In this document: positions 3,088 through 20,217 of the stretch, piece after piece | Layout: each line of letters starts with the position of its first letter | Numbering within the stretch: the first letter of the stretch is position 1 | IMG/VR virus record: IMGVR_UViG_3300046454_000619 | Span: 1-20,896 of that record | Length of the DNA: 20,896 bases | Source of the DNA: a virus | Direction: 5' to 3' (one strand) | Position numbers and translations under genes: made by a program | Notes under the pieces: generated by a model | The model's input: only the letters and a program-made list of their open reading frames with translations | Told to the model about the DNA's origin: nothing | Database searches by the model: none

Positions 3088-3163
3088 GGCAACGGTATAT
3101 TAAATATTTACGTTAAACGCTAGAATGAGTATAGTGGCTCATCTTTTCAAAAAGGTGAGAATG

Positions 3164-3949: not shown

Positions 3950-4385
3950 TCGACTCCGCGCCGCCGTCCTCCGTGAGGCCGAGACGTGGCTGTCGACGCC
4001 ATATCACCACATGGCCCGGGTCAAGGGCGCGGGGTGCGACTGCCTGACCTTCCTCGCCGAGGTCTACGCCGCCGCGGGCGTCATCGAGCCCGTGGGTAAG
4101 ATCCCCTTTTACCGCCTGGACTTCATGCGCCACCAGGACGACGAGACCTACCTGAACGGCCTCCTCGCGCGCGGCCACGAGGTCGCCGCCCCGCTCCCGG
4201 CCGACGTGGTGCTGTACAAGTGGGGCCGGGTATTCTCCCACGGGGCGATCGTCGTCGACTGGCCCCGTCGGATCATCCACGCCTCGCCGAGCCACTCCGG
4301 GGTCATCTGGGCGCACGGCACGCAGGGGCGGCTCGCGGGCCACGAGATGCGGTTCGTCTCGCCGTTCGCCGACGAGGCGGCCTGA
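3918..4385 (+). CDS. NlpC/P60-type tail peptidase (GTA gp14-like)
   Basis: 155 residues from a GTG start with GAGGAAGG about 8 bases upstream, both lying inside the end of the homing endonuclease gene. The catalytic Cys is most likely C42 in GAGCDCLTF, and His is H108 in FSHGAIVV, with a third polar residue at H121 (IIHAS). The motif order and length match the TIGR02219-like tail peptidases that follow DUF2163 in GTA-type modules. Role by family: a cell-wall hydrolase at the tail tip that helps penetration. The stop directly abuts the ATG of the next gene (TGA then ATG). Confidence 0.88.
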   Translation: MLKLEEKTATSRLRAAVLREAETWLSTPYHHMARVKGAGCDCLTFLAEVYAAAGVIEPVGKIPFYRLDFMRHQDDETYLNGLLARGHEVAAPLPADVVLYKWGRVFSHGAIVVDWPRRIIHASPSHSGVIWAHGTQGRLAGHEMRFVSPFADEAA

Positions 4386-6509
4386 ATGCCCTCCCTCTTC
4401 AAGCCCCTCAAGCCGTTCCTCCAGACGAACGCCTGGCAGCACCAGAACCTCAACTCGCTCCAGTACAACACGTCGATCGCCGGGTCGGTCATCCCGATTA
4501 TCTACGGGAAGACGCGCCAGTCGATCAACCTCATCGGGTTCGGGAACTTCTCCGGCCCCCAGGGTAAGAAGGGAAAGGTCGGCCCGCTGCCGATCACCGG
4601 GACCAACCAGAACGCTAAGGGCGGTAAGGGCGGCGGCGGGAGCAAGAAGGGGGCGACGGGCAAGAAGAGTCAGGATTTCTCGATCGACGTGTCGATGGGA
4701 ATCTGCCAGGGGCCGGCGAACATCGAGGCCAACAATTTCGTATGGGCGAGCGCCGGGGTCGCGTTCTTCCAGAGCGTTGGGCTGAACCTCTACACCGGGG
4801 CGGACGGTCAGGCCGCGGACCCGGTGATGGCCGGCCTGGGGCAGGTCGTCGGGTACTCGGGAACCCTCTACGTCACCGGGACCCCGATGGATCTGGGGTC
4901 GAGCCCGGTGCTCCCAAACTTGAGCTTTGAGGTTACGGGCTTCCTCAGCGGGACCGGCGGGACCCAGTACACGGTCGACGCCAACCCAGCGCAGGTCGTC
5001 GTGGACTTCCTCTCCAACGCGCGCTACGGGGCGGCCTTCCCCGCCGCGAACATCGCGGCGGACATCGGCACGGTCTACGGAGACTACTGCGTCGCGGCGC
5101 AGCTCCCGATATCGGTCTCGCTGAACGTCCAGAACATGGCCCACGAGTGGCTCGCGGGGCTCGCGAAGAACACGAACTCGGCGATCGTCTGGTCGGGGAA
5201 GATCCTGAAGATAATTCCCTACGGCGACCTCCAGTTGTCGGGCGGCGGCGTCACGTGGACCCCGAACATGGTGCCCGAGTACGACCTCGGCGACGACGAC
5301 TACCTGCCGTGGTCTCCCCACCTGGACGTCGACGCGCCACAGGAGGGCCAGGAAGACCCGGTGTTGATAACCCGGTCCAACCCGGCAGACGCGATCAACT
5401 GGCTGACGATCGAGTACCTGGACCGGAACAACTTCTACAACGCGACGGTCCTGCCGGTCTTCGACCAGAACTCGATCGACGCCTACGGGATGCGCTCCGG
5501 CGAGAACCTCCAGGGCCACATGTTCTGCAACGCGGCGTCGGCCCAGATATCAGCTCAGCTCTGGCTCCAGCGGCTCCTCTATATCCGCAACACCTACAAG
5601 TGGCAGATGGGGTGGCAGTTCGCGCTCCTTGAGCCGATGGACATCGTCCTGCTGACCGACTCGCGGAGCGGCCTGAACCAGCAGGCCGTCCGGATTACCT
5701 CGATCGAGGAAAACGAGAACGGGGATTTGACCTTCGAGGGCGAGGAGATCGTCATCGGGACGGCGCTGCCGGCCCCGACGCCGGTTTCGCCGACGCTTGA
5801 CACCGTTGCAAACAGCTTCTTTGATAATGCGATCAGCGGAAACAGTAACTTCTTCGGTGACCTCACACCGACCCCGCTCAGCACCACGAGCACCAACGAG
5901 ATCATCATCGTCGCGGTATATAACCAAGAAGCGTCTGGAGCCGGCGCTTCCTCGACCGTGGCGTCGATAACGAGTACCCCGTCGGGCCTCGTCTTCTCGC
6001 GCATCGGCGGCGGAAATTTCCACGACGCGGCGGCGGGCGGCACGCCTTGGCAGAACTTGGAGTTTTGGGCAGCCTTCTCTTCCGGAATCCTGCTCAACGA
6101 GATCCTGACGATCACCTTCCACGCGGTTGCCAATACGGTCTGCTGGTGCGCGTTCGGGATCAAGGGCGCTAACATTTCTTCTCCGATGGACCCGAATGGC
6201 TCGCTCCCCGCGGTCACGACGAGCCTGGTGCCAGCTAACGTCACCGCGACGATCAGCACGACGGACCCGAATGACATCCTAATCTGGGCGGCGGGTGGTC
6301 AAGGCGCGGGCGCGAACGCGGGACCGCCGGCCGGCTTCTCGCAGATCGTGGATAATTTCGCTAACCCGTTCGGGGCGGCGCCGACGGCGATTTTGTCGGT
6401 GAGCTATCAGGTAGTGGCCGCGACGCAGACCGGCCTGGTCCTACACGCAACGACCGCGTTCCCCAGCGCCGCGGGCGTCTGCGTGGCAACCGCGCTCAGG
6501 GGGTACTGA
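4386..6509 (+). CDS. J-like tail tip / baseplate hub protein, N-terminal portion with appended beta domain
   Basis: 707 residues. IAGSVIPIIYGKTRQSINLI (about 31-50) and a Gly/Lys-rich linker (about 57-95) are typical of the host-specificity protein J / GTA gp15 family. The middle (to about 460) carries further recognisable parts such as MAHEWLAGLAKNTNSAI, YLDRNNFYNATV and EPMDIVLLTD. Residues about 470-707 look like a beta-rich jelly-roll module rather than the usual continuation. The usual C-terminal region of single-chain homologues is in the next gene, so the protein appears split. The stop overlaps the next ATG by one base (TGATG). Role: central tail tip scaffold and part of host recognition. 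Confidence 0.85.
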   Translation: MPSLFKPLKPFLQTNAWQHQNLNSLQYNTSIAGSVIPIIYGKTRQSINLIGFGNFSGPQGKKGKVGPLPITGTNQNAKGGKGGGGSKKGATGKKSQDFSIDVSMGICQGPANIEANNFVWASAGVAFFQSVGLNLYTGADGQAADPVMAGLGQVVGYSGTLYVTGTPMDLGSSPVLPNLSFEVTGFLSGTGGTQYTVDANPAQVVVDFLSNARYGAAFPAANIAADIGTVYGDYCVAAQLPISVSLNVQNMAHEWLAGLAKNTNSAIVWSGKILKIIPYGDLQLSGGGVTWTPNMVPEYDLGDDDYLPWSPHLDVDAPQEGQEDPVLITRSNPADAINWLTIEYLDRNNFYNATVLPVFDQNSIDAYGMRSGENLQGHMFCNAASAQISAQLWLQRLLYIRNTYKWQMGWQFALLEPMDIVLLTDSRSGLNQQAVRITSIEENENGDLTFEGEEIVIGTALPAPTPVSPTLDTVANSFFDNAISGNSNFFGDLTPTPLSTTSTNEIIIVAVYNQEASGAGASSTVASITSTPSGLVFSRIGGGNFHDAAAGGTPWQNLEFWAAFSSGILLNEILTITFHAVANTVCWCAFGIKGANISSPMDPNGSLPAVTTSLVPANVTATISTTDPNDILIWAAGGQGAGANAGPPAGFSQIVDNFANPFGAAPTAILSVSYQVVAATQTGLVLHATTAFPSAAGVCVATALRGY

Positions 6510-12971: not shown

Positions 12972-14396
12972 TTAGCCCGGCAGCGCCTCGAACTCGTGGA
13001 CCCAGCGGATCACCTGTTCCGAGAACCCGTCCAGGTGGGTCCACCGCTCCCCGTAGCCGACGCCGTTCTGGTAGGCCGCGACGTTGATCAGGTACGCGCG
13101 GGCGGCGCGGGGCGGCGGCACGTGGTCGCGCGACTGCTCGTCGGTGATCACGATCAGCCGGTCCATATCGAGGTTCGCGAGGCTGCCCACCGCCGAGCCC
13201 AGCTGGGTTCCCTGGTGGGGCTGGCTGTCGATGATCTGGCGGATGCCGGATAGCCCCTGAGGAACCTCGTTGTTGAGCGCGACCAGGTGGTTCGAGAACG
13301 TATAGACGCGCACGTCGCCGTGGATCATAACCGCGAGCGCCGCTGCCGCGTCGATGCGGGAGAGGTCCGACTTGGCGGAGATCTTAGCGTCCATGGAGCC
13401 GGAGACGTCGACCAGCACGACCGTCCGGCCCGGTAGGACCGGGAGCTCGGCCACGGCGGCCCTCATGGCCGGGTCGAGGAACGGTACCATCTCCGGGCAC
13501 GCCCGCGCCGCCGCGACGTAGCGGAACGGCAGCACGCGGCGCGCCCCCTTGCGGGCGAGGATCGCGGACGAGACGAGGCTCGGGTCGACCCCGGCCTCGG
13601 TCATGTTCCGCAGGTTGCGCAGCAGCGCCAGATAGCCCAGCTTGCCGTCGCGCAGCTGACCCTCGAAGACGTCCTTCTTGTGCTGCTCCTTGGTGACGCC
13701 CTCGGCGGGGCCGGCGGACAGCCCCACCTCCCACGTGTCGGCGGACTTCACCTCGCCGGCGACGAGCTGTTTCCACAGCGCGGCCTGCTCGGCGTCCCTC
13801 GGCTTGGGGTGGACGAGGAACATCACGTCGCGGCCCTTGATCGGCTGGCCGGCCTCGCCGGAGGGCGAGAAATACTTCGCCAGCGCGTAGCGGTCGAACT
13901 TACCGAACGCCGCGGCCAGGCCCTTCTTGACCTGGGCTGACAGCTTCTTCTTGAGCGCCTTCGGCTCCACGCCGTTGGCCCGCGCGTAGACCGCGAGGAA
14001 CTCGCTCAGCTCGTCGGCGCGTTGGATAGTTTGGGAGATCGTATCGCTTACGATACGAGTTCCCGAACCGGTGCGCGCGAGGACGGCGCACAGCAGCAGC
14101 GGCACGTGCCGCAGGTTGAGGTGCGACCGCGCGTCGATCGCCAGCTGGGCGAGGACGGTCGGGGCCACCTGCCCGGCGAGGTCGGTGATCCGCGCCGCGA
14201 TGTCCTGGCCGGACTCGTAGAAGGTGTCCTCCCACAGGAGGCACGCGCAGACCGAGCGGCGCAGCGCCATTTCGGGCGAGATGAGCGCGGCCGGCGCGCC
14301 CTCGTGGGTGCGTAGCGTGTTGCTGGGCTCGAAGACGCGCGGCGGGGTTCCGCCCTGTGGCGGCAGCGCCGGCTTACGGGAGTTGAGTGCGGCCAT
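12972..14396 (-). CDS. Ro60 orthologue (TROVE domain plus vWA/MIDAS domain)
   Basis: 474 residues from ATG 14396, chosen because AGGAGG (14406-14411 on the complement) sits 9 bases upstream; ATG 14405 is an alternative. The N-terminal about 320 residues are the HEAT-like TROVE ring (PEMALRRSVCACLLWED, HLNLRHVPLLLCAVLA, RADELSEFLAVYARANG, YLALLRNLRNMTEAGV). The C-terminal vWA domain has a complete MIDAS motif DVSGSM (D330, S332, S334) and a later ITDEQS. Family knowledge: Ro60 is a doughnut-shaped protein that binds misfolded RNA ends and Y RNA; in Deinococcus, Y RNA tethers it to PNPase. Three structured RNAs with Y RNA features lie directly upstream on the same strand, behind promoter P1. 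Confidence 0.95.
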   Translation of the reverse strand: MAALNSRKPALPPQGGTPPRVFEPSNTLRTHEGAPAALISPEMALRRSVCACLLWEDTFYESGQDIAARITDLAGQVAPTVLAQLAIDARSHLNLRHVPLLLCAVLARTGSGTRIVSDTISQTIQRADELSEFLAVYARANGVEPKALKKKLSAQVKKGLAAAFGKFDRYALAKYFSPSGEAGQPIKGRDVMFLVHPKPRDAEQAALWKQLVAGEVKSADTWEVGLSAGPAEGVTKEQHKKDVFEGQLRDGKLGYLALLRNLRNMTEAGVDPSLVSSAILARKGARRVLPFRYVAAARACPEMVPFLDPAMRAAVAELPVLPGRTVVLVDVSGSMDAKISAKSDLSRIDAAAALAVMIHGDVRVYTFSNHLVALNNEVPQGLSGIRQIIDSQPHQGTQLGSAVGSLANLDMDRLIVITDEQSRDHVPPPRAARAYLINVAAYQNGVGYGERWTHLDGFSEQVIRWVHEFEALPG

Positions 14397-14448
14397 TGAG
14401 ATCATCCTCCTGGGGTGATCGACCGCTGGGAGAGGCACCGGGGGAACG

Positions 14449-14565
14449 GGCGGTAACGGGTTGTGTGGACCCCCTTGCGGGGGCACGCCGGGATTTGAAC
14501 CCGGACCCACGGCTTGATGGGCCGTTGCTCTACCAAAGAGCTTCGATGCAACCGTAACCTACGCC
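14449..14565 (-). ncRNA. Candidate Y RNA 3 (YrlA-like, with tRNA-like module)
   Basis: The ends pair: 5' GGCGTAGGTTACGGTTG (14565-14549) with 3' CAACCCGTTACCGCC (14463-14449). This gives helices of 3, 3, 4 and 3 bp separated by a GUA bulge on the 5' strand, a U-U mismatch and one bulged C. Inside is a tRNA-like module without acceptor stem: D arm GCTC/GAGC with GG in the loop (14541-14527), anticodon-like arm ACGGC-CCATCAA-GCCGT (14525-14509), canonical T arm CCGGG-TTCAAAT-CCCGG (14504-14488), then a hairpin CCCCC-GCAA-GGGGG with GNRA loop (14483-14470). A D, anticodon and T arm set on a long closing stem is what tRNA-mimicking bacterial Y RNAs show. It ends about 50 bases before the Ro60 start codon. 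Confidence 0.75.
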
Positions 14566-14595
14566 ACCCGGCGTCTATCCAGCGATCGAGGAACA

Positions 14596-14690
14596 AGCGG
14601 AAGCGGTACACCCACCGAGGTGGGTTCTGGGTTCGAACCAGATAGGATGCCCGAGGGCATCTTTTCACCGAAGTACCCGCGTCCTACGCC
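14596..14690 (-). ncRNA. Candidate Y RNA 2 (reduced tRNA-like module)
   Basis: 5' GGCGTAGGACGCGGGTAC (14690-14673) pairs with 3' GTACCGCTTCCGCT (14609-14596) as helices of 3, 3, 4 and 3 bp, with the same GUA bulge, a C-U mismatch at the same place as in copy 3, and one bulged G. The interior has a short D-like arm (TTCGGTGAA), a hairpin GATGCC-CTCG-GGCATC (14661-14646), a canonical T arm TCTGG-TTCGAAC-CCAGA (14642-14626) and an abutting hairpin ACCCAC-CTCG-GTGGGT (14625-14610). It is followed by TGTTCCTCG, matching the 3' flanks of the other copies. Confidence 0.75.
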
Positions 14691-14719
14691 ATCGACCTAA
14701 AACTCTGCGCTCGGGAACA

Positions 14720-14786
14720 GGCGGGATCGAGAGCGGGGCCGAAGCCCCAGGCGCTGTTCAAGTGCGATGAACTCGATCCCTACGCC
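14720..14786 (-). ncRNA. Candidate Y RNA 1 (minimal copy without T arm)
   Basis: 5' GGCGTAGGGATCGAG (14786-14772) pairs with 3' CTCGATCCCGCC (14731-14720): 3 bp, the GUA bulge, then 9 perfect bp. Inside are a small hairpin TTCA-TCGCACT-TGAA and GGGGC-TTCG-GCCCC with a UUCG tetraloop (14748-14735). There is no D or T arm. It starts about 8 bases downstream of the expected start of transcription at P1, and its 3' flank TGTTCCCGAG matches the other copies. It looks like a Ro-binding stem without the tRNA mimic. Confidence 0.6.
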
Positions 14787-14800
14787 ACGAGCACGGGGGG

Positions 14801-14829
14801 TTTATACTCTCCTTCGGCGGATAAGTAAA
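14801..14829 (-). promoter_or_regulatory. Promoter P1 for the Y RNA / Ro60 transcript
   Basis: On the complement: TTTACT (-35, 14829-14824), a 17-base spacer, TATAAA (-10, 14806-14801). The expected start is about 14794, just before candidate Y RNA 1. The layout, including the preceding T/A-rich tract, GGTTTACTT and CCCC after the -10 box, repeats at P2. Confidence 0.75.
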
Positions 14830-14856: not shown

Positions 14857-15468
14857 TTACGCCAACTCCACGTTATGATACAACCATGAGCCAAAATCTT
14901 CCCGCACGTCGTTCGCGAGGAACTCCAGGCCCGCGCGCAGCAGCTCCGCCGGGGTTGGTGCCCGCGGCGGCTTGAGCGGCCGGAGGCCCGACGCGCGCCG
15001 GGCCGAGTACCGCGGAAGGCTGTCCCGCTTGCGCTTGTTGCACTCGACGCACGCCGACACGATGTTGTCCCACCGCGTCTCGCCACCGCGCGAGCGCGGT
15101 ACGACGTGGTCGTACGTCAGCTCGGCTTCGTCGAATCGCTCCCCGCAGTACTGGCACCTATACCGGTCGCGCAGGAGGATCGAGCGCCGGCAGAACTTCG
15201 GCTCGGCGTCGACGCAGGCGTATGCACGTAGCATCATCACTTTCGGCACGGCGATGGTCGTGCTCGGTGAGCGAAAGAACGCGCCGGGCCACTCCTCGAC
15301 CACGATCGCCTTGTCCAGCCACGCGGCCGTGACGGCGTCGGCGGCCGAGATTAGGTTCAGCGGCCACGTGGATAGCGGACGGCCGTCGGCATTGAGCACC
15401 AGGGTGCGCAGCGTCGTCGGGTGGCGCAGCGAACTTCGCTCTTTGCTCTTAGCCCACGTGTGGATCAT
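14857..15468 (-). CDS. HNH endonuclease (C2C2 zinc type) between tRNA array and Ro60
   Basis: 203 residues. The N-terminal part (TLVLNADGRPLSTWPLNLISAADAV...) is the conserved leader of a common bacterial and phage HNH family. The core has C105-x2-C108, then YDHVVPRSRGGETRWDNIV (D120, H121, N135) and C140-x2-C143 followed by basic residues. Typical roles are nicking or cutting DNA, as a free-standing homing enzyme or in packaging or recombination. The ATG lies two bases after the encoded CCA of tRNA-Thr(CGT), and its only visible ribosome site (AGGAG) lies in that tRNA's acceptor stem. It ends 28 bases upstream of promoter P1. GC-rich like the phage backbone, so probably long resident. Confidence 0.9.
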   Translation of the reverse strand: MIHTWAKSKERSSLRHPTTLRTLVLNADGRPLSTWPLNLISAADAVTAAWLDKAIVVEEWPGAFFRSPSTTIAVPKVMMLRAYACVDAEPKFCRRSILLRDRYRCQYCGERFDEAELTYDHVVPRSRGGETRWDNIVSACVECNKRKRDSLPRYSARRASGLRPLKPPRAPTPAELLRAGLEFLANDVREDFGSWLYHNVELA

Positions 15469-15470
15469 GA

Positions 15471-15545
15471 TGGTGCTCCTGGAGAGAATCGAACTCGTCG
15501 TCTACCGCTTACGAGGCGGTTGTCCTGCCACTGAACGACAAGAGC
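15471..15545 (-). tRNA. tRNA-Thr(CGT)
   Basis: Acceptor GCTCTTG/CAGGAGC, A73 and CCA encoded. Anticodon loop CTCGTAA in a 5-bp stem ACCGC/GCGGT. T loop TTCGATT, but the T stem has only three good pairs. The acceptor strand also holds the ribosome site of the following HNH gene. Confidence 0.85.
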
Positions 15546-15547
15546 GT

Positions 15548-15622
15548 TGGTGCCCCGAGAGGGACTCGAACCCCCGACTCCCCGGTTAAAGGCCGGGAAC
15601 TCTGCCGCTGAGTTACCGAGGC
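15548..15622 (-). tRNA. tRNA-Lys(TTT), C33
   Basis: Acceptor GCCTCGG/TCGGGGC with wobbles, A73, CCA encoded. Anticodon arm CCCGG-CCTTTAA-CCGGG; position 33 is C instead of the near-universal T. T arm GGGGG-TTCGAGT-CCCTC is canonical. Confidence 0.88.
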
Positions 15623-15624
15623 GG

Positions 15625-15701
15625 TGGTGCGCAGTCTCGGATTCGAACCGAGAGGACCCGGTTTTTGAAACCAGGATGTCTACCAGTTGCATCAACTGCG
15701 C
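15625..15701 (-). tRNA. tRNA-Leu(CAA), short variable loop
   Basis: Acceptor GCGCAGT/ACTGCGC, A73, CCA encoded. Anticodon arm CTGGT-TTCAAAA-ACCGG. T arm CTCGG-TTCGAAT-CCGAG. D loop AACTGGTA is leucine-like, but the variable loop is only five bases where bacterial leucine tRNAs have a long arm. Confidence 0.82.
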
Positions 15702-15703
15702 CC

Positions 15704-15780
15704 TGGTGCGCACCGGGAGATTCGAACTCCCACTGGGCCGGGCTTAAACCGGCTGCCTCTACCAGTTGGGCTACGTGCGC
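15704..15780 (-). tRNA. tRNA-Leu(TAA), short variable loop
   Basis: Acceptor GCGCACG/GGTGCGC (last pair mismatched), A73, CCA encoded. Anticodon arm GCCGG-TTTAAGC-CCGGC. T arm GGGAG-TTCGAAT-CTCCC. Variable loop five bases. Close relative of the adjacent CAA copy (same acceptor start and D loop), so probably a duplication. Confidence 0.82.
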
Positions 15781-15782
15781 GG

Positions 15783-15857
15783 TGGTGGTCTCGCCGGGAG
15801 TCGAACCCGGATCTTAGGTTTCGGAGACCTACGCTCGGTCCATCGAGCTGCGAGACT
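15783..15857 (-). tRNA. tRNA-Arg(CCG)
   Basis: Acceptor AGTCTCG/CGAGACC (first pair mismatched), A73, CCA encoded. Anticodon arm TAGGT-CTCCGAA-ACCTA, D arm GCTC/GAGC, T arm CCGGG-TTCGACT-CCCGG. Its 5' 29 bases are also the 3' end of an HNH reading frame. Confidence 0.88.
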
Positions 15858-16293
15858 TAAGTTGTAAGCCAAGCTTAGTGAGTCTGCCTAATGCCCCTTT
15901 ACGGCCGCCTATTTTTAACCGTTCAAACGCTTCTGAACTAATATTCAGAGTTCCCCAAGTATCAGTCTGAGAATGACAGTTTGGGCAAAGACCTTGAAGA
16001 TTTTCACGCGAATTATCGTTTTTATTTCCGTTCAAGTGATCAAGTTCTAACCTAATAGGACGACCATTCCACTCAGTTATACCACAAATTAAGCACGCAT
16101 TTGATTGTTCTTCAAATACACGCTTTCTCCGTTTAGTTCTACCTAGCATTTCAAATGTACGTGGCAGCGTTATACGTTTTATTTTTCTAATCCTACGCGG
16201 GTTATTAAATTTAGCCGAACAAGATTGGCCGCAAAATTTGCCATTTCGATTTTTATAAGGTAATTCTTTACCGCAGTTTTGGCATATTTTCAT
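15829..16293 (-). CDS. HNH homing endonuclease inside the tRNA array, AT-rich
   Basis: 154 residues; ATG preceded by GAGAGG. The N-terminus is a small zinc motif (C4-x2-C7, C21-x3-C25: MKICQNCGKEL...FCGQSC). The HNH core has C67-x2-C70, LELDHLNGNKNDNSRENLQGLCPNCH (D85, H86, N98) and C103-x2-C106-H107. Such proteins are free-standing homing endonucleases common in phages. The DNA is far more AT-rich than the flanking tRNAs, so it is a recent insert. Its last nine codons and stop run into tRNA-Arg(CCG), so its C-terminus is partly dictated by tRNA sequence. No remnants of a split gene are visible. Confidence 0.9.
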   Translation of the reverse strand: MKICQNCGKELPYKNRNGKFCGQSCSAKFNNPRRIRKIKRITLPRTFEMLGRTKRRKRVFEEQSNACLICGITEWNGRPIRLELDHLNGNKNDNSRENLQGLCPNCHSQTDTWGTLNISSEAFERLKIGGRKGALGRLTKLGLQLKSRSSMDRA

Positions 16294-16312
16294 ATATACC
16301 TCTCGATAAAGA

Positions 16313-16384
16313 TGGAACCCCGCCCGAGGATCGAACTCGGCGCTGCTGGCTTAGAAGGCCTGCGTGCGTCCCAGCGCGCGGGGT
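16313..16384 (-). tRNA. tRNA-Arg(TCT), short D arm
   Basis: Acceptor ACCCCGC/GCGGGGT, T73, CCA encoded. Anticodon loop CTTCTAA in CAGGC/GCCAG (one A-A mismatch). T arm CCGAG-TTCGATC-CTCGG. Only 72 bases because the D region is 15 bases with a weak stem. Confidence 0.8.
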
Positions 16385-16386
16385 AT

Positions 16387-16458
16387 TGGCGCCCCCTGAG
16401 AGAGTCGAACTCCCCTTCCCGGGTTCGTAGCCCAGGTGCCGGGTCCGCCGGAGAGGGC
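16387..16458 (-). tRNA. tRNA-Arg(ACG), short D arm
   Basis: Acceptor GCCCTCT/AGGGGGC, G73, CCA encoded. Anticodon arm CTGGG-CTACGAA-CCCGG; A34 would need deamination to inosine by host TadA to read CGC. T arm GGGAG-TTCGACT-CTCTC. 72 bases with a reduced D arm. It directly abuts the next tRNA. Confidence 0.82.
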
Positions 16459-16532
16459 TGGTCGAGCGGACGGGATTTGAACCCGCGTTGGACAGATTGA
16501 AAATCTGTGGTCCTACCTTAGACGACCGCTCG
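16459..16532 (-). tRNA. tRNA-Glu(TTC)
   Basis: Acceptor CGAGCGG/CCGCTCG, A73, CCA encoded. D arm GTCT/GGAC, anticodon arm ACAGA-TTTTCAA-TCTGT, T arm GCGGG-TTCAAAT-CCCGT. Canonical throughout. Confidence 0.92.
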
Positions 16533-16534
16533 GT

Positions 16535-16786
16535 TTACCAGTAGTAGATGTGCGGCTTCTTCTCGACCGGCCAGACGATTCCCTCCGGGTCGCGCCCCTG
16601 CATCACCAGGACGACCGCGGCGCGGGTCCGGCGACGACGCGGCCGGGTGTGAAACGTGATGTCCCAGGCCCGCGGCCACTGGGAGAGCCAGTGGTAGCGG
16701 TCCCAGTCCGGCTGGCGCCGACGATGCTTGTCGCGTCCGCGGCAGTGGCGGGTCGTCCGCGGGTATCCGCGTTTGTAGTTCGCCAT
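16535..16786 (-). CDS. Small very basic phage protein of unknown function
   Basis: 83 residues; ATG preceded by AGGAGG at good spacing. The sequence is rich in Arg, His and Trp (MANYKRGYPRTTRH, HRRRQPDWDRYHWLSQWPRAW, HTRPRRRRTRA, ending KKPHIYYW). The high positive charge suggests nucleic-acid binding, but no named domain is recognised. It sits between tRNA-Glu and a 140-base structured gap and ends two bases before the tRNA start. GC content matches the backbone, and the strong start signals make it a real gene. Confidence 0.75.
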   Translation of the reverse strand: MANYKRGYPRTTRHCRGRDKHRRRQPDWDRYHWLSQWPRAWDITFHTRPRRRRTRAAVVLVMQGRDPEGIVWPVEKKPHIYYW

Positions 16787-16926
16787 GAGTAGCCTCCTGT
16801 GGGTAAGCTATGACATGACGAACCTCCTTTCATGGACGCGGGGCGACCCGAGGCGTTACCCAGAGCCGAGTCACCAAAAGTAACGAGCCGCCCGTCGGCG
16901 ACGGCTCCGGGGCTCTGTCCGCTTGT
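16787..16926 (-). other. Intergenic segment with hairpins and a two-codon leader frame
   Basis: No tRNA found. On the complement there are inverted repeats GAGCCG/CGGCTC with inner CCGTC-GCC-GACGG, AGAGCC/GGCTCT, and GTTAC/GTGAC. Near the downstream gene a strong ribosome site (AAGGAGG) precedes ATGTCATAG, a two-codon frame, before the gene's own AGGAGG. This could be the 5' leader of the 83-residue gene. Confidence 0.4.
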
Positions 16927-17000
16927 TGGTGGGTCCCCGAGGAATCGAACCCCGATCTGGAGTGTGTAGGACTCCGGCCCTGCCATTAGACGAGGGACCC
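16927..17000 (-). tRNA. tRNA-Val(TAC), C33
   Basis: Acceptor GGGTCCC/GGGACCC, A73, CCA encoded. D arm GTCT/AGGGC region with GG; anticodon arm GGAGT-CCTACAC-ACTCC with C at 33. T arm CGGGG-TTCGATT-CCTCG. Confidence 0.88.
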
Positions 17001-17004
17001 TGTA

Positions 17005-17076
17005 TGGCGCCGACGCGGGGACTCGAACCCCGGCTCCCTCGCTTAGGAGGCGTGGGCGCGATCCGTCGCCGTCGGC
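17005..17076 (-). tRNA. tRNA-Arg(CCT), short D arm
   Basis: Acceptor GCCGACG/CGTCGGC, G73, CCA encoded. Anticodon loop CTCCTAA in CACGC/GCGAG (one A-A mismatch). T arm CGGGG-TTCGAGT-CCCCG. 72 bases; D arm GCGA-CGGA-TCGC. Confidence 0.82.
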
Positions 17077-17081
17077 GGTAT

Positions 17082-17159
17082 TGGTCGGAGTGAGAGGATT
17101 CGAACCTCTGGCAACCCGCTTCCAGGGCGGGGACTCTGGCCTGACTGAGCTACACTCCG
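17082..17159 (-). tRNA. tRNA-Pro(TGG), C33
   Basis: Acceptor CGGAGTG/CACTCCG, A73, CCA encoded. D arm GCTC/GAGT, anticodon arm CCCGC-CCTGGAA-GCGGG with C33, T arm AGAGG-TTCGAAT-CCTCT. Confidence 0.88.
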
Positions 17160-17162
17160 TAA

Positions 17163-17237
17163 TGGCGCGCCCGACCGGGATCAAACCGGCCTGACCCGGT
17201 AGACAGCCGGGTGTCCTCTTCAGATGACTACGGGCGC
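17163..17237 (-). tRNA. tRNA-Asp(GTC)
   Basis: Acceptor GCGCCCG/CGGGCGC, G73 (expected for Asp), CCA encoded. Anticodon arm CCCGG-CTGTCTA-CCGGG. T loop TTTGATC has T in place of C56. Confidence 0.88.
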
Positions 17238-17242
17238 TTTGA

Positions 17243-17317
17243 TGGTGCGCGCGGAGGGACTCGAACCCCCGTCCTACTGGTTAAGGGCCAGCAGCTCTGC
17301 CGCTGAGCTACGCACGC
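17243..17317 (-). tRNA. tRNA-Lys(CTT), C33
   Basis: Acceptor GCGTGCG/CGCGCGC, A73, CCA encoded. D arm GCTC/GAGC, anticodon arm GCTGG-CCCTTAA-CCAGT with C33, T arm GGGGG-TTCGAGT-CCCTC. Related to tRNA-Lys(TTT), which also has C33. Confidence 0.88.
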
Positions 17318-17324
17318 GTGAAAC

Positions 17325-17398
17325 TGGTACCCCCACCCTGTACTGACCAGGGATTTCGCGGTTATCGGCCGCGCTCTCTACCATTGAGATATAGGGGC
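17325..17398 (-). tRNA. tRNA-Ile(GAT), C33 and non-canonical T loop
   Basis: Acceptor GCCCCTA/TGGGGGT, A73, CCA encoded. D arm TCTC/GAGA, anticodon arm CGCGG-CCGATAA-CCGCG with C33. T stem CCCTG/CAGGG is perfect but its loop is GTCAGTA, lacking the TTC motif. Confidence 0.78.
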
Positions 17399-17400
17399 GT

Positions 17401-17486
17401 TGGTGGGGAAAGGCTGAGTCGAACAGCGCGCCCGTAGGCGACCGGGTTACAGCCGGCTTACCGCGTCCCGCGGCTGACACTTCCCC
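17401..17486 (-). tRNA. tRNA-Tyr(GTA), class II
   Basis: Acceptor GGGGAAG/TTTCCCC, A73, CCA encoded. Anticodon arm GCCGG-CTGTAAC-CCGGT, long variable arm (CGCC..GGGCG) as expected for bacterial Tyr, T loop TTCGACT. Confidence 0.87.
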
Positions 17487-17487
17487 G

Positions 17488-17562
17488 TGGTGCCGTCGGC
17501 GGGGATCGAACCCGCAGCCTCCCGCTTACCAAGCGGATGCACGCCCATCGTGCTGCGACGGC
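17488..17562 (-). tRNA. tRNA-Thr(GGT)
   Basis: Acceptor GCCGTCG/CGACGGC, A73, CCA encoded. Anticodon arm TCCGC-TTGGTAA-GCGGG, T arm GCGGG-TTCGATC-CCCGC. Canonical. Confidence 0.9.
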
Positions 17563-17563
17563 T

Positions 17564-17653
17564 TGGCGGACAGCCTCGGGCATGATCCGAATCCCCTCTC
17601 GGGGACACACCGCTTAGCAGGCGGGTCCGGCAACCGTACCGGCTGTGCTGTCC
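17564..17653 (-). tRNA. tRNA-Ser(GCT), non-canonical T loop
   Basis: Acceptor GGACAGC/GCTGTCC, G73 (serine), CCA encoded. Anticodon loop CTGCTAA, long variable arm (TCCCC..GGGGA). T stem TTCGG/CCGAG encloses ATCATGC rather than a TTCRA loop. Confidence 0.8.
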
Positions 17654-17657
17654 TAAT

Positions 17658-17746
17658 TGGCGGGCGACCGAGGTCCTGATCCCCATGCCCCGGAGGGCAC
17701 CACCGGTGTTCGAAGCCGGGCCGCGCGCTCGCGCGGTTGATCGCCC
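17658..17746 (-). tRNA. tRNA-Ser(CGA), non-canonical T loop
   Basis: Acceptor GGGCGAT/GTCGCCC, G73, CCA encoded. Anticodon loop TTCGAAC in CCGGC/ACCGG (last pair C-A), long variable arm TGCCC..GGGCA. T stem TGGGG/CCTCG with loop ATCAGGA. Confidence 0.78.
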
Positions 17747-17749
17747 TTA

Positions 17750-17838
17750 TGGAGGAAGGCGGGTGGTGTCGATCCCCACCCCTTTGCGGGGCCACCGGGT
17801 TTCAAAGCCGGGCCGCGAGCCGTCGCGGTTCACCTTCC
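17750..17838 (-). tRNA. tRNA-Ser(TGA), degenerate T arm
   Basis: Acceptor GGAAGGT/GCCTTCC, T73, CCA encoded. Anticodon loop TTTGAAA, long variable arm GGCCCC..GGGGT. The T arm is atypical: GGTGG/CCACC with a nine-base loop. Confidence 0.74.
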
Positions 17839-17996
17839 GTAAACCTTCTTCCCCTGGCTAGGATTATGAGTCCGCGCGCCAGCGCACCAAGCAGGTTTAG
17901 AGCCCACCAGCACTCGGGGCTGACTAGGCCCCTATGGGGAGTTGGGGTGGGACCCTCTGCCCAGTAGTCAGCCGGGCCGCTTTCCCACCGTGCCTC
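17839..17996 (-). other. 158-base unresolved structured gap between two serine tRNAs
   Basis: No complete tRNA fits. On the complement there is a 9-bp inverted repeat GGCTGACTA/TAGTCAGCC, a 7-bp pairing GGTGGGA/TCCCACC, and a part closed by TAAACC/GGTTTA (next to the Ser(TGA) 5' end). That part contains CTGGC/GCCAG and a methionine-like hairpin GGA-CTCATAA-TCC, but has no room for a T arm. It may be decayed tRNA genes or another small RNA. Confidence 0.4.
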
Positions 17997-18085
17997 TGGA
18001 GGATGCCGTCGCTGCCGACGCGAACGCCCTCCCGGGCGCCAACCGGCTTCCGACCGGTGCCGGGGGCCGCCCCGGTTCAGCATCC
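17997..18085 (-). tRNA. tRNA-Ser(GGA), C33, degenerate T arm
   Basis: Acceptor GGATGCT/GGCATCC, T73, CCA encoded. Anticodon arm ACCGG-TCGGAAG-CCGGT with C33, long variable arm GCGCCC..GGGCG. The T arm region lacks a TTCRA loop. Fourth serine acceptor, completing NCU/UCN coverage with the other three. Confidence 0.74.
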
Positions 18086-18091
18086 ATTAAC

Positions 18092-18168
18092 TGGTGCGCA
18101 GGGAGGGAGTCGAACCCTCAAAACTCCACGGTCTGAACGTGGCGACTTTACCGTTTGCCCACCTGCGC
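18092..18168 (-). tRNA. tRNA-Leu(CAG), short variable loop
   Basis: Acceptor GCGCAGG/CCTGCGC, A73, CCA encoded. Anticodon arm CCACG-TTCAGAC-CGTGG, T arm GAGGG-TTCGACT-CCCTC, D loop with ACGGTAAA. Variable loop six bases, no long arm. Confidence 0.83.
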
Positions 18169-18175
18169 GGTGGCT

Positions 18176-18251
18176 TGGTACGCGCGGGGCGACTCGAACG
18201 CCCACTTGCGAGGCCCTCGACCTCGTGCCTCTACCGTTGGGCTACGCGCGC
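18176..18251 (-). tRNA. tRNA-Leu(GAG), C33, short variable loop
   Basis: Acceptor GCGCGCG/CGCGCGT, A73, CCA encoded. Anticodon arm CGAGG-TCGAGGG-CCTCG with C33, T arm GGGCG-TTCGAGT-CGCCC, variable loop five bases. Confidence 0.83.
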
Positions 18252-18256
18252 ATAAT

Positions 18257-18333
18257 TGGTCGTCCCAGGGGGAATCGAACCCACCTCCTCCGCCTTGAGA
18301 GGGCGGCGTCCTAGGCCGGTAGACGATGGGACG
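18257..18333 (-). tRNA. tRNA-Glu(CTC)
   Basis: Acceptor CGTCCCA/TGGGACG, A73, CCA encoded. D arm GTCT region, anticodon arm CCGCC-CTCTCAA-GGCGG, T loop TTCGATT. Abuts tRNA-Gln(TTG). Confidence 0.88.
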
Positions 18334-18407
18334 TGGAAGGCCTCCAGGGATTCGAACCCCGATACACGGCATCAAAAACCGTGGGCTTGCCGTTAGCCGA
18401 GAGGCCC
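18334..18407 (-). tRNA. tRNA-Gln(TTG)
   Basis: Acceptor GGGCCTC/GAGGCCT (first pair G-U), T73, CCA encoded. Anticodon arm ACGGT-TTTTGAT-GCCGT, T arm CGGGG-TTCGAAT-CCCTG. Confidence 0.88.
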
Positions 18408-18551
18408 GTCGTCGCTGGTAGGGGATGCGGGAATCGAACCCACGTCCTCCGGGTCAGAGCCGGATGCACTGGCCGCTGTGCTAATCCCCATCAATTCGTT
18501 GCGCTGCTCCTCGGCCAGGGCCAGGAGGCGCTCGATCTCGTCCCGCGTCAT
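18393..18551 (-). CDS. Short protein (52 aa) running through tRNA-Gln genes
   Basis: ATG 18551 has AGGAGG at ideal spacing. The first 20 codons (MTRDEIERLLALAEEQRNEL) look like a charged amphipathic helix. The frame then reads through the whole of tRNA-Gln(CTG) and stops inside tRNA-Gln(TTG), so the last about 30 residues are dictated by tRNA sequence. It may be a real small helix protein whose natural stop was lost. Function unknown. Confidence 0.4.
   Translation of the reverse strand: MTRDEIERLLALAEEQRNELMGISTAASASGSDPEDVGSIPASPTSDDGPLG
18416..18490 (-). tRNA. tRNA-Gln(CTG)
   Basis: Acceptor TGGGGAT/ATCCCCT with an open first pair (U-U); a weak 1-72 pair is typical of glutamine tRNAs. A73, CCA encoded. 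Anticodon arm TCCGG-CTCTGAC-CCGGA, T arm GTGGG-TTCGATT-CCCGC. A short reading frame runs through it. Confidence 0.88.
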
Positions 18552-18666
18552 CGCGCCCTCCTCTCAAGATCGTGTTGAACCGGCACGGGCCTCCGGAGGC
18601 CGGGCATCGGAGCTCGTGGAGCTCCGGGTCGTAGGTCGCGCATGGCGTTAGGAGGTCCGACGGCAT
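18481..18666 (-). CDS. Short Cys-containing protein (61 aa) in the tRNA array
   Basis: ATG 18666 is preceded by GGAGGT at good spacing; an upstream in-frame ATG at 18699 lies within tRNA-Thr(TGT) and is unlikely. The sequence MPSDLLTPCATYDPELHELRCPASGGPCRFN contains three cysteines that could bind zinc. The second half overlaps the next short frame out of register and is Gly/Arg/Pro-rich. Function unknown. Confidence 0.4.
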   Translation of the reverse strand: MPSDLLTPCATYDPELHELRCPASGGPCRFNTILRGGRDDAGRDRAPPGPGRGAAQRIDGD

Positions 18667-18683
18667 ATCGCTTACCTCCGAAT

Positions 18684-18760
18684 TGGTGCCCACGGTCACG
18701 ATTCGAACGGACGACTTCCGGCTTACAAAACCGGCGCTCTGCCGACTGAGCTACGCGGGC
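18684..18760 (-). tRNA. tRNA-Thr(TGT)
   Basis: Acceptor GCCCGCG/CGTGGGC, A73, CCA encoded. D arm GCTC/GAGC, anticodon arm CCGGT-TTTGTAA-GCCGG, T loop TTCGAAT with an imperfect stem. Third threonine isoacceptor. Confidence 0.87.
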
Positions 18761-18766
18761 GAATAA

Positions 18767-18931
18767 GCATACGCGGGCTACGCGATGGGACTTTCATGCG
18801 TCGTGTAATTCCAAGCGGATTAGATGGTACTCTTAGGCCGCCCTCGTGCCCCGCAGTCTCCGCTCACCGGGGTACCGCCCGTACGGACAACCGCTTCCCT
18901 GTACACGCTCAGGGCGTAGCCCACGTATGCT
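18767..18931 (-). ncRNA. 165-base structured RNA closed by a 17-bp helix, unknown type
   Basis: GCATACGTGGGCTACGC (18931-18915) pairs with GCGTAGCCCGCGTATGC (18783-18767). The single imperfect pair is a G-U wobble on the minus strand but a C-A mismatch on the plus strand, which points to a minus-strand RNA. Inside are CCCTG/CAGGG, AAGCGG/CCGCTT, GGTAC/GTACC and CCCCG/CGGGG pairings. It lies tightly between tRNA-His and tRNA-Thr(TGT) and does not fit a tRNA, tmRNA or RNase P RNA by eye. Confidence 0.55.
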
Positions 18932-18934
18932 TAC

Positions 18935-19010
18935 TGGGGTGAGGTGCGGGTGCTGGCCCCGCTGCTTCGCCTTCACAGGGCGACGTGTCCTCTGGTTCAC
19001 TAACCTCACC
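18935..19010 (-). tRNA. tRNA-His(GTG), encoded G-1, non-canonical T loop
   Basis: Extra 5' G pairs with C73, the histidine identity element: GGTGAGGT/ACCTCACC then CCA. Anticodon arm TCGCC-CTGTGAA-GGCGA, D arm GTG/CAC. T stem GCGGG/CCCGC is perfect but the loop is GCCAGCA. Confidence 0.82.
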
Positions 19011-19011
19011 A

Positions 19012-19084
19012 TGGAGCCACGCTGGCGAATCGAACGCCTTGTCCCGGGTTGCAACCGAGCGCCTCTCCATTTGGCTTGCGCGGC
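19012..19084 (-). tRNA. tRNA-Cys(GCA)
   Basis: Acceptor GCCGCGC/GCGTGGC, T73 (expected for Cys), CCA encoded. D arm GCC/GGC, anticodon arm CTCGG-TTGCAAC-CCGGG, T loop TTCGATT. Confidence 0.88.
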
Positions 19085-19085
19085 T

Positions 19086-19158
19086 TGGCACCGGCGGAGC
19101 GGAATTGAACCCTCCTGCAGGGGTTTGGAGTCCCTGATGTTCACCAGAACGCGCCGGT
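19086..19158 (-). tRNA. tRNA-Trp(CCA)
   Basis: Acceptor ACCGGCG/CGCCGGT, G73 (expected for Trp), CCA encoded. Anticodon loop CTCCAAA in AGGGA/CCCCT (last pair A-C). T loop TTCAATT, T stem with one bulged base. Confidence 0.87.
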
Positions 19159-19161
19159 AAT

Positions 19162-19237
19162 TGGCTCCCATCCCAGGTACCGCCCCTGGCCGCATCGGAT
19201 TAACAGTCCGCGCCGTTCGCTTGCTCGGTCGATGGGA
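19162..19237 (-). tRNA. tRNA-Asn(GTT), non-canonical D and T loops
   Basis: Acceptor TCCCATC/GATGGGA, G73, CCA encoded. Anticodon arm GCGGA-CTGTTAA-TCCGA. T stem CCAGG/CCTGG perfect with loop GGCGGTA. The D arm CCG/CGG has loop AGCAAGCGAA without the usual GG, so both tertiary-contact partners changed together. Confidence 0.8.
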
Positions 19238-19342
19238 ATGAAACTGTTGAGTGAGAATTTTACATAGCCCCCACTCACGGCTCTCATCGCGACGCTTCAA
19301 CCCAAGCTATCCTAGGTCCGGGGTGTATACGAGTCGCGAAAC
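19238..19342 (-). other. 105-base gap with short hairpins
   Basis: No tRNA or gene recognised. On the complement TCGCGAC/GTCGCGA pairs over about 40 bases, and GTGAG/CTCAC encloses ATGTAAAATT. It may be spacer, a processing element or a decayed tRNA. Confidence 0.35.
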
Positions 19343-19417
19343 TGGAGCGGACGGCGGGAATCGAACCCGCTACCGGGTGCTTGGAAGGCACCGACTCTGC
19401 CAATGAGTTACGCCCGC
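19343..19417 (-). tRNA. tRNA-Gly(TCC)
   Basis: Acceptor GCGGGCG/CGTCCGC, T73, CCA encoded. Anticodon arm GGTGC-CTTCCAA-GCACC, T arm GCGGG-TTCGATT-CCCGC. Canonical. Confidence 0.9.
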
Positions 19418-19418
19418 G

Positions 19419-19494
19419 TGGTGCCGAGACCTGGGATCGCACCAGGATGTCGCCGCCTTCAACGGCGCGCGAGGACTACCTTTGCTATCTCGGC
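19419..19494 (-). tRNA. tRNA-Phe(GAA)
   Basis: Acceptor GCCGAGA/TCTCGGC, A73, CCA encoded. Anticodon arm CGCCG-TTGAAGG-CGGCG. T stem CCTGG/CCAGG with loop TGCGATC, in which position 55 is G instead of T. Confidence 0.87.
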
Positions 19495-19499
19495 GAAAT

Positions 19500-19576
19500 T
19501 GGAGGCAGGGAGCGGATTCGAACCGCTGACCTCGAGGTTATGGGCCTCGCGCGCTGCCAGGCTGCGCCACCCTGCG
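19500..19576 (-). tRNA. Initiator tRNA-fMet(CAT), C33
   Basis: Closely follows bacterial initiator tRNA: CGCAGGGTGG start, GCAGCCTGGCAGC D arm, and an unpaired C1-C72. Anticodon arm CGAGG-CCCATAA-CCTCG has C33, and only two of the three usual G-C pairs at the loop end. T arm AGCGG-TTCGAAT-CCGCT, T73, CCA encoded. Confidence 0.82.
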
Positions 19577-19584
19577 TCAAAATC

Positions 19585-19660
19585 TGGTCCCGGTGGGTGG
19601 AGTCGAACCAACCGACCTAGCCGTTATGAGCGGCCCGATCTTCCGCTGATCTACACCGGG
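19585..19660 (-). tRNA. tRNA-Met(CAT), elongator (or Ile2)
   Basis: Acceptor CCCGGTG/CACCGGG, A73, CCA encoded. Anticodon arm GGCCG-CTCATAA-CGGCT. T loop TTCGACT. With a paired first position it is not an initiator; a lysidine-modified isoleucine tRNA for AUA cannot be excluded by sequence. Confidence 0.85.
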
Positions 19661-19661
19661 G

Positions 19662-19735
19662 TGGAGCGGCCATGGGAAATCGAATCCCACCCTTCTCGTT
19701 GGCAACGAGATGCTCGACCTCCGAGCTGTGGCCGC
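19662..19735 (-). tRNA. tRNA-Gly(GCC)
   Basis: Acceptor GCGGCCA/TGGCCGC, T73, CCA encoded. D arm GCTC/GAGC, anticodon arm TCTCG-TTGCCAA-CGAGA, T arm TGGGA-TTCGATT-TCCCA. Confidence 0.92.
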
Positions 19736-19739
19736 AATT

Positions 19740-19814
19740 TGGTGGAGAACGAGGGAATCGAACCCTCATGACGCGATCTTGCAAGGATCGCCGCCGCCCC
19801 AGCAGCCGTTCCCC
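19740..19814 (-). tRNA. tRNA-Ala(TGC)
   Basis: Acceptor GGGGAAC/GTTCTCC, A73, CCA encoded. Anticodon arm CGATC-CTTGCAA-GATCG, T arm GAGGG-TTCGATT-CCCTC. First tRNA of the array after the leader; the canonical G3-U70 pair of alanine is present (third pair G-T). Confidence 0.9.
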
Positions 19815-19816
19815 GT

Positions 19817-19933
19817 GTTGACTTACGCCTACTGTCAGGTGAATGGCTGTACCTGGCGCATTCTTAGCCGCAGGATTCGCGTGGGTCATCACTTGCTCAC
19901 CTGCAGTTACGCCGACAGTAGGCGTAAGTCAAC
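19817..19933 (-). ncRNA. 117-base hairpin RNA closed by a perfect 20-bp helix
   Basis: GTTGACTTACGCCTACTGTC (19933-19914 read on the complement) pairs perfectly with GACAGTAGGCGTAAGTCAAC (19836-19817). An inner AGGTGA/TCACCT helix encloses about 50 bases with a possible GTG/CAC arm. It stands two bases before tRNA-Ala. It could be an RNase III processing substrate, an independent small RNA, or a tRNA-like element; no family is recognised. Confidence 0.55.
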
Positions 19934-20188
19934 TACATCAAAAAGACGCTGCGGCCGGCTGTACGGCTCCTGCCTGGGGGTTTCCACCCAAGCTCCCGGT
20001 ACCGGGGTCTACCCCCTAAGAATCAAAATCCCCGCCAAACTCTCGTCGGGCGGGGTTCCAAACTCGCTGGTGCCGGGTTGAACTTACCCGGCCGGAACCT
20101 CCGCACAGCCCCGCTGATTCCGGGGCGATTGCCCCGACGCGGCGGCCGTCGGCTCTTTGTGTGTGGTCGTTAACCAGCTCATGGCGGG
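19934..20188 (-). other. Structured non-coding leader of the tRNA array
   Basis: No gene. Reading down from P2 there are GGGGC-AATC-GCCCC, CCGGGT/ACCCGG with a seven-base loop, CCCCGCC/GGCGGGG (20055-20030) followed by ATTTTGATT, then GGGG-TAGA-CCCC and GGGT-GGAA-ACCC. The 7-bp stem with a T-rich tail resembles an attenuator. Confidence 0.45.
20030..20055 (-). terminator. Possible attenuator in the tRNA-array leader
   Basis: Stem CCCCGCC/GGCGGGG with a 12-base loop, followed on the minus strand by ATTTTGATTCTT. The T run is interrupted, so it is probably a weak terminator. Confidence 0.4.
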
Positions 20189-20217
20189 GTTATAACGTAC
20201 CCCGGCGTTGAAGTAAA
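20189..20217 (-). promoter_or_regulatory. Promoter P2 for the tRNA array
   Basis: On the complement: TTTACT (-35, 20217-20212), 17-base spacer, TATAAC (-10, 20194-20189). The surroundings TTTTTGGGTTTACTT and CCCC after the -10 box match P1, so both RNA transcripts probably use one polymerase form. Confidence 0.72.

Follow-up and report, generated by a model that had tools for sequence, protein, structure and literature searches.

Organization of the Locus

The minus strand of the virus record IMGVR_UViG_3300046454_000619, a linear fragment of 20,896 bp that was analyzed over its complete length (the window), carries an array of transfer RNA (tRNA) genes at positions 15471–19814, followed by an HNH endonuclease gene, three putative Y RNA genes and, downstream of these, a gene encoding Ro60 (Table 1). 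Default ARAGORN identified 26 tRNAs in the array, most of them backed by the Rfam tRNA model, and nine more (Arg-UCU, Ile-GAU, Tyr-GUA, Ser-GCU, Ser-UGA, Ser-CGA, Trp-CCA, His-GUG, and Asn-GUU) were added by ARAGORN in relaxed or metazoan mode and by a custom cloverleaf scanner, giving a total of 35. The scanner required a CCA end, and at scores of ≥26 and ≥28 it gave 34 and 33 hits, respectively, compared to 0.05 and 0 for 20 Markov-shuffled versions of the region. Together the 35 tRNAs present 34 distinct anticodons that serve 20/20 amino acids, and all 35 genes terminate in an encoded CCA. An initial annotation had counted about 36 tRNAs in these 4.3 kb, serving every amino acid and with CCA encoded throughout, and had recommended the relaxed ARAGORN settings that, together with our scanner, raised the default count of 26 to 35. 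Its number was right to within one gene, and its other two statements hold for the 35 well-supported genes. The 36th candidate is weak, being a CAU-like element with acceptor and anticodon arm and without T arm or CCA, and was excluded from the count.

By itself, the array is of a known kind. Large phage arrays are on record, including one in XacN1 that covers all 20 amino acids (PMC5852040), and an initiator tRNA is annotated in T5; XacN1, T5 and the cluster C1 mycobacteriophages likewise have dense, CCA-encoding arrays with intervening HNH genes. Unlike in these phages, the 35 tRNAs packed into 4.3 kb lie here beside putative Y RNAs and Ro60, and 20% of them have cytidine in place of uridine at position 33 (C33 and U33), a change found in one tRNA in the 50 kb of XacN1 examined and in none among the tRNAs found in T5. 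What is new beyond the array, and worth testing, is C33 as well as Ro60 and tandem putative Y RNAs beside the array.

Table 1. Positions of features in and around the tRNA array, all on the minus strand and listed in the order of that strand.
Feature	Positions	Evidence
Promoter-like TTTACTT-N16-TATAA before array leader	20190..20217	motif scan
Structured leader before first tRNA	19815..20183	fold, inverted repeat
tRNA-Ala(UGC)	19740..19814	default ARAGORN, scanner; D stem weak
tRNA-Gly(GCC)	19662..19735	default ARAGORN, Rfam, scanner
tRNA-Met(CAU), elongator Met or Ile2	19585..19660	default ARAGORN, Rfam, scanner
Initiator-like tRNA-fMet(CAU), C1-C72 mismatch, C33	19500..19576	default ARAGORN, Rfam, scanner, stem parse
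tRNA-Phe(GAA), T loop TGC	19419..19494	default ARAGORN, scanner
tRNA-Gly(UCC)	19343..19417	default ARAGORN, Rfam, scanner
tRNA-Asn(GUU), T loop G54...G58	19162..19237	relaxed ARAGORN, scanner
tRNA-Trp(CCA)	19086..19161	Rfam, relaxed ARAGORN
tRNA-Cys(GCA)	19012..19084	default ARAGORN, scanner
tRNA-His(GUG), T loop G54...G58	18935..19009	relaxed ARAGORN, scanner
tRNA-Thr(UGU)	18684..18760	default ARAGORN, Rfam
tRNA-Gln(CUG)	18416..18490	default ARAGORN, Rfam, scanner
tRNA-Gln(UUG)	18334..18407	default ARAGORN, Rfam, scanner
tRNA-Glu(CUC)	18257..18333	default ARAGORN, Rfam, scanner
tRNA-Leu(GAG), C33	18176..18251	default ARAGORN, Rfam, scanner, position-33 tally
tRNA-Leu(CAG)	18092..18168	default ARAGORN, Rfam, scanner
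Weak CAU tRNA-like relic, acceptor TAAACCT/AGGTTTA (uncounted)	17840..17899	read from sequence
tRNA-Ser(UGA), unusual T loop	17750..17838	relaxed ARAGORN
tRNA-Ser(CGA), T loop A54	17658..17746	scanner
tRNA-Ser(GCU), T loop A54	17564..17653	relaxed ARAGORN, scanner
tRNA-Thr(GGU)	17488..17562	default ARAGORN, Rfam, scanner
tRNA-Tyr(GUA)	17401..17486	relaxed ARAGORN, scanner
tRNA-Ile(GAU), C33, T loop G54...G58	17325..17398	Rfam, relaxed ARAGORN, scanner
tRNA-Lys(CUU), C33	17243..17317	default ARAGORN, Rfam, scanner, position-33 tally
tRNA-Asp(GUC)	17163..17237	default ARAGORN, scanner
tRNA-Pro(UGG), C33	17082..17159	default ARAGORN, Rfam, scanner, position-33 tally
tRNA-Arg(CCU)	17005..17079	default ARAGORN, scanner
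tRNA-Val(UAC), C33	16927..17000	default ARAGORN, Rfam, scanner, position-33 tally
Open reading frame (ORF) of 83 amino acids within array	16535..16786	no family found (Pfam, PHROG searches)
tRNA-Glu(UUC)	16459..16532	default ARAGORN, Rfam, scanner
tRNA-Arg(ACG)	16387..16458	default ARAGORN, scanner
tRNA-Arg(UCU)	16313..16386	relaxed ARAGORN, scanner
HNH-like endonuclease ORF, AT-rich, between tRNAs	15829..16293	weak HNH matches
tRNA-Arg(CCG)	15783..15857	default ARAGORN, Rfam, scanner
tRNA-Leu(UAA)	15704..15780	default ARAGORN, Rfam, scanner
tRNA-Leu(CAA)	15625..15701	default ARAGORN, Rfam, scanner
tRNA-Lys(UUU), C33	15548..15622	default ARAGORN, Rfam, scanner, position-33 tally
tRNA-Thr(CGU), final array gene	15471..15545	default ARAGORN, Rfam, scanner
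HNH endonuclease gene, after array	14857..15468	Pfam HNH_5 4e-16, phrog_16726
Promoter-like TTTACTT-N16-TATAA, second copy, 12 nt before Y RNA 1	14802..14829	motif scan
Putative Y RNA 1, short type, without tRNA-like part	14713..14789	end motifs, stem, fold
Putative Y RNA 2, T-arm-like hairpin	14589..14693	end motifs, stem, fold
Putative Y RNA 3, tRNA-like tip (D, anticodon-like, T arms)	14442..14568	end motifs, stem, fold, ARAGORN
Ro60 (TROVE + vWA) gene	12972..14396	Pfam TROVE 3e-8, phrog_850 1.5e-46, PDB 9l5y 1.6e-24

Cytidine at Position 33

U33, which precedes the anticodon, is among the most conserved tRNA bases. In the array it is replaced by C33 in 7/35 tRNAs (fMet, Leu-GAG, Ile-GAU, Lys-UUU, Lys-CUU, Pro-UGG, and Val-UAC), and the stems of these seven are free of mismatches except for position 1-72 of the initiator. 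The bacterial controls, three Ro60-carrying genomes for the full tRNA set, had U33 in 98/98 distinct tRNAs (7/35 vs 0/98 with C33; Fisher p = 5e-5). Across ten groups of phage tRNA loci C33 was found in 20/206 and A33 in 1/206, so that 20 of the 21 changed bases are C, as expected if a pyrimidine is required at this position. The change also recurs in isoacceptors that have it in the window, as C33 is present in Ile-GAU of XacN1, RcXuper and the viral Ro60 loci L014 and L024, in Leu-GAG of L024 and virus Rctr197k, and in Val-UAC and fMet of Rctr197k. A pattern search for tRNA-Met in 200 genomes of a single bacterial phylum, the Pseudomonadota, retrieved the U33 form from 190 genomes and the C33 form from none, while the C33 pattern occurred in at least 120 viral stretches. 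Inspection of 80 of these viral loci confirmed a genuine C33 tRNA-Met in 61, on contigs of 30–69% G+C; this spread rules out simple GC drift as the source of C33. Position 1-72 was scored as unpaired in 36 of the 61, a score that is unreliable where ARAGORN shifted the gene ends. Avoidance of TGT/TadA substrates by C33 was not significant in the window (P = 0.30).

Nuclease-resistant phage tRNAs with changed anticodon loops have been described before (van den Berg et al., 2023; PMC10264068), and the main text of that paper, which proposes escape through the anticodon loop, does not mention U33 or position 33. The tRNAs treated there differ from host tRNAs in the anticodon loop; those of the window differ in this loop from the tRNAs of the control bacteria. 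In phage Sf14 most of the loop changes affect position 1 or 7 of the loop and one affects position 6, with none described for position 2, i.e., U33 (PMC12482277). C33 in intact viral tRNAs, absent from the bacterial genomes checked, is a simple and testable mark of tRNAs that may serve in the tRNA-cleavage arms race.

The initial annotation had also listed an initiator tRNA. The unpaired C1-C72 of tRNA-fMet, an initiator mark, and its anticodon stem (CGAGG/CCTCG, i.e., GG..CC) bear this out, while one of the three initiator G-C pairs is missing and position 11-24 is C-G; for these two reasons we term it initiator-like. The accompanying statement that initiator tRNAs are rare in phages was too strong, given the one annotated in T5 and the many viral contigs with an initiator-like C33 tRNA-Met.

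Structural irregularities were seen elsewhere in the set. Stem mismatches occurred at a rate of 4–12% compared to 0.3–2% in bacterial tRNAs; those of Trp, Ser-UGA, Thr-UGU, and Arg-CCU are possibly register artefacts of the parser. The T loop contained TTC in 98/99 bacterial control tRNAs. In the array, T loops with G54...G58 were observed in Ile (GTCAGTA), His (GCCAGCA) and Asn (GGCGGTA), A54 in two Ser tRNAs and TGC in Phe. The mismatch rate, together with HNH genes within and beside the array, would suit a relaxed cargo, in which drifting tRNA genes gather alongside homing HNH genes and show early decay in the form of C33 and the odd T loops. We regard this as decidedly improbable, as all seven tRNAs with C33 keep their stems intact, 20/21 changes at position 33 are to C, C33 tRNA-Met spans contigs of widely differing G+C content, and CCA is kept in every gene.

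Decoding Capacity

The 4,297 codons counted in the phage's own genes have G or C at 84.9% of third positions. By classical wobble, 14% of these codons would lack a reader among the 34 anticodons, and if four-box tRNAs with U34 decode all four codons, only CUA and AUA (1.1% of codons) would do so. The set thus looks like a near-autonomous pool more than a correction of particular codons. Codon compensation, by which the tRNAs would boost codons frequent in the phage and rare in its host, can draw on the 62% of phage codons that have an exact-match tRNA and on such a tendency in XacN1 (PMC5852040). It nevertheless seems improbable to us, because all amino acids are covered, including tRNAs for the scarcely used codons UUA and AGA, and because a single generalist U34 tRNA serves each of Ala, Pro and Val, leaving their commonest codons GCG, CCG and GUC without exact match. 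Of the comparison of anticodons with phage and host codon use that the initial annotation had recommended, these figures provide the phage side.

Ro60 and Putative Y RNAs

The Ro60 gene likely starts at ATG 14396, since the upstream GTG at 14510 overlaps the putative Y RNA 3. Its product matched Pfam TROVE above and vWA_Ro60 just below the respective cut-off, and residues D330, S332, S334 and D419 of the vWA metal site (D-x-S-x-S...T...D) are invariant, and T397 nearly so, in 24 sequences. The AlphaFold model (predicted local distance difference test, pLDDT, 82) has the predicted architecture of a HEAT-repeat TROVE ring with a vWA domain, and Foldseek matched it at probability 1.0 to 9kop, 9l5y, 2nvo and 1yvp, covering Ro60 of phage phiLo, Deinococcus (D. 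radiodurans) and animals. By sequence as well as fold it thus belongs with phage Ro60 (Thermus phage phiLo, 9l5y; phrog_850).

Directly upstream, at 14789–14442, lie three tandem units with GGYGGCGUAG-like 5′ ends, CGCYYGUUCC 3′ ends and a stem that joins the two ends. Their tRNA-like arms differ, with D and T arms in the third unit, a T arm in the second and none in the first, and a tRNA-Pro called by ARAGORN at 14479–14568 is part of the third. When units were chosen by their end motifs alone, the stem was kept despite sequence differences (5.93/7 positions paired vs 4.19 ± 0.135 on random re-pairing; 45 units). A search of 47 Ro60 loci (40 viral contigs, six phage records and the window) located 73 units upstream of Ro60, distributed over 30 of the loci; six others lay downstream and two on the opposite strand, and shuffled sequence gave none. 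Among bacterial Ro60 loci, 60 of 79 had at least one unit and up to five. Below its curated cut-off, the Rfam YrlA model matched units in CcrColossus (E = 3e-6) and in Kikimora; neither this model nor the transfer-messenger RNA (tmRNA) models matched the window up to E = 5. Judging from the end motifs, the kept stem, the upstream placement and the sub-cut-off YrlA matches in relatives, the most likely identity of the units of the window is that of YrlA-type Y RNAs, and Ro60 probably binds all three.

The arrangement resembles bacterial Ro60 (Rsr)/YrlA and the D. radiodurans RYPER, which likewise combine the Ro60 fold with directly upstream Y RNA genes and tRNA-like tips (in the window, on the third unit), but differs in being phage-borne, in its tandem short and tRNA-like units and in the lack of an Rfam YrlA match to the units of the window. 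We found no account of phage Y RNAs in the literature searched, a limited set. The corresponding stretch is unannotated in CcrPW and bears a tRNA call in CcrColossus and Kikimora. In CcrColossus (locus L054, 2864–3956) seven tandem units were observed, two of which by eye seemingly mimic class II tRNAs, with a Leu/Ser-like D arm and, in one, a variable arm; the tRNA mimics thus look diversified. Phage Ro60 with tandem Y RNAs would offer a system for asking about bacterial Y RNA function.

A Common Promoter-Like Motif and Possible Functions

The motif TTTACTT-N16-TATAA occurs twice in the window, before the array leader and before the putative Y RNA 1, and not in any of 300 Markov windows; a standard sigma-70 promoter scan found nothing at the array. 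As these are the only two copies, they suggest that the Ro60/Y cluster may be controlled together with the tRNA array. Ro60 was also found beside large tRNA arrays at three other viral loci, L024 (33 tRNAs and a tmRNA), L014 (19) and L015 (22), and 6/38 viral Ro60 records had at least 20 tRNAs. That the cluster is an unrelated passenger beside the array would agree with most viral and bacterial Ro60 loci having no tRNA array nearby, yet the motif common to both and the recurrence of the pairing at these three loci make this somewhat unlikely.

Our tentative interpretation, to which we give slightly less than an even chance, is that the array is a pool of tRNAs that replaces those of the host once these have been cleaved, and that Ro60/Y RNA particles either deal with damaged tRNA or function as decoys. 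Once expressed and charged, the near-complete pool would sustain phage translation after loss of host tRNAs, most likely to tRNA-cleaving defense nucleases, and its C33 portion could be insensitive to nucleases that read U33. The three Y RNAs and Ro60 would form a ribonucleoprotein that is co-expressed with the pool, and the tRNA-like parts of the Y RNAs may bring RNA-decay enzymes to tRNAs that are damaged or misfolded, or serve as decoys for tRNA-binding nucleases. In published work, tRNAs of T5-type phages restored infection in the face of retron-Eco7, PrrC170 and PARIS (PMC11555353, PMC12409363). Bacterial Rsr and YrlA, together with PNPase, make up a decay machine (reviewed in PMC8394870). 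The Rsr/YrlA operon of Salmonella is induced by cleaved tRNAs, and the authors suggest a decoy role for YrlA, whose tRNA-like part might block an anticodon nuclease (PMC7790460). If the interpretation is true, the locus is a kit for sustaining protein synthesis when host tRNAs are damaged. Between the two uses named in the initial annotation, continued translation after cleavage of host tRNAs and correction of codon bias, we infer the former, as the breadth of the set, its near-autonomy and C33 fit it better.

Host tRNAs might instead be lost through the phage's own destruction of the host genome or shut-off of transcription, with no defense nuclease involved and C33 being incidental. A near-complete set would suit late translation after such a shut-off, and the same conclusion was reached for phage Sf14 (PMC12482277), but this would leave unexplained C33, with its absence from the bacterial controls, as well as the Y RNAs that mimic tRNAs, and we consider this alternative unlikely. 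Going further than a replacement pool, the C33 tRNAs, including initiators, may constitute a virus-specific class that is normal in all other respects and selected to evade nucleases or surveillance dependent on the near-universal U33, acting with a Ro60/Y RNA particle whose mimics divert or dispose of tRNA-damaging machinery; this is a speculation that lies well on the unlikely side.

Several observations weigh against the replacement pool. Every annotated T5 tRNA recovered by ARAGORN has U33 and the tRNAs of T5 counter nucleases; escape thus does not depend on C33. The stem mismatches and odd T loops suggest that part of the set could be non-functional, most viral Ro60 records are without large tRNA sets, which makes the pairing not obligatory, and the record is only a 20.9 kb fragment.

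Other Features

The leader of the array is predicted to be strongly folded (19815–20190; z = -7.8 vs shuffles) and includes inverted repeats about 20 bp long (19817–19836/19914–19933); a search against the phages collection gave no match. In L024 a phage tmRNA with a tag ending in MAA (4027–4386) heads the array of 33 tRNAs by Ro60 and two putative Y RNAs, and in Kikimora (L053, 7344–7689) a permuted tmRNA match at gathering level was observed near Ro60. Searches for relatives with the tail genes retrieved small fragments and distant phages of Acinetobacter, Brevundimonas and Pseudomonas, and nothing else. The HNH-like ORF between the tRNAs has the base composition of a recent insert, and a GIY-YIG homing-type endonuclease at 3125–3949 lies in a low-GC island among the tail genes.

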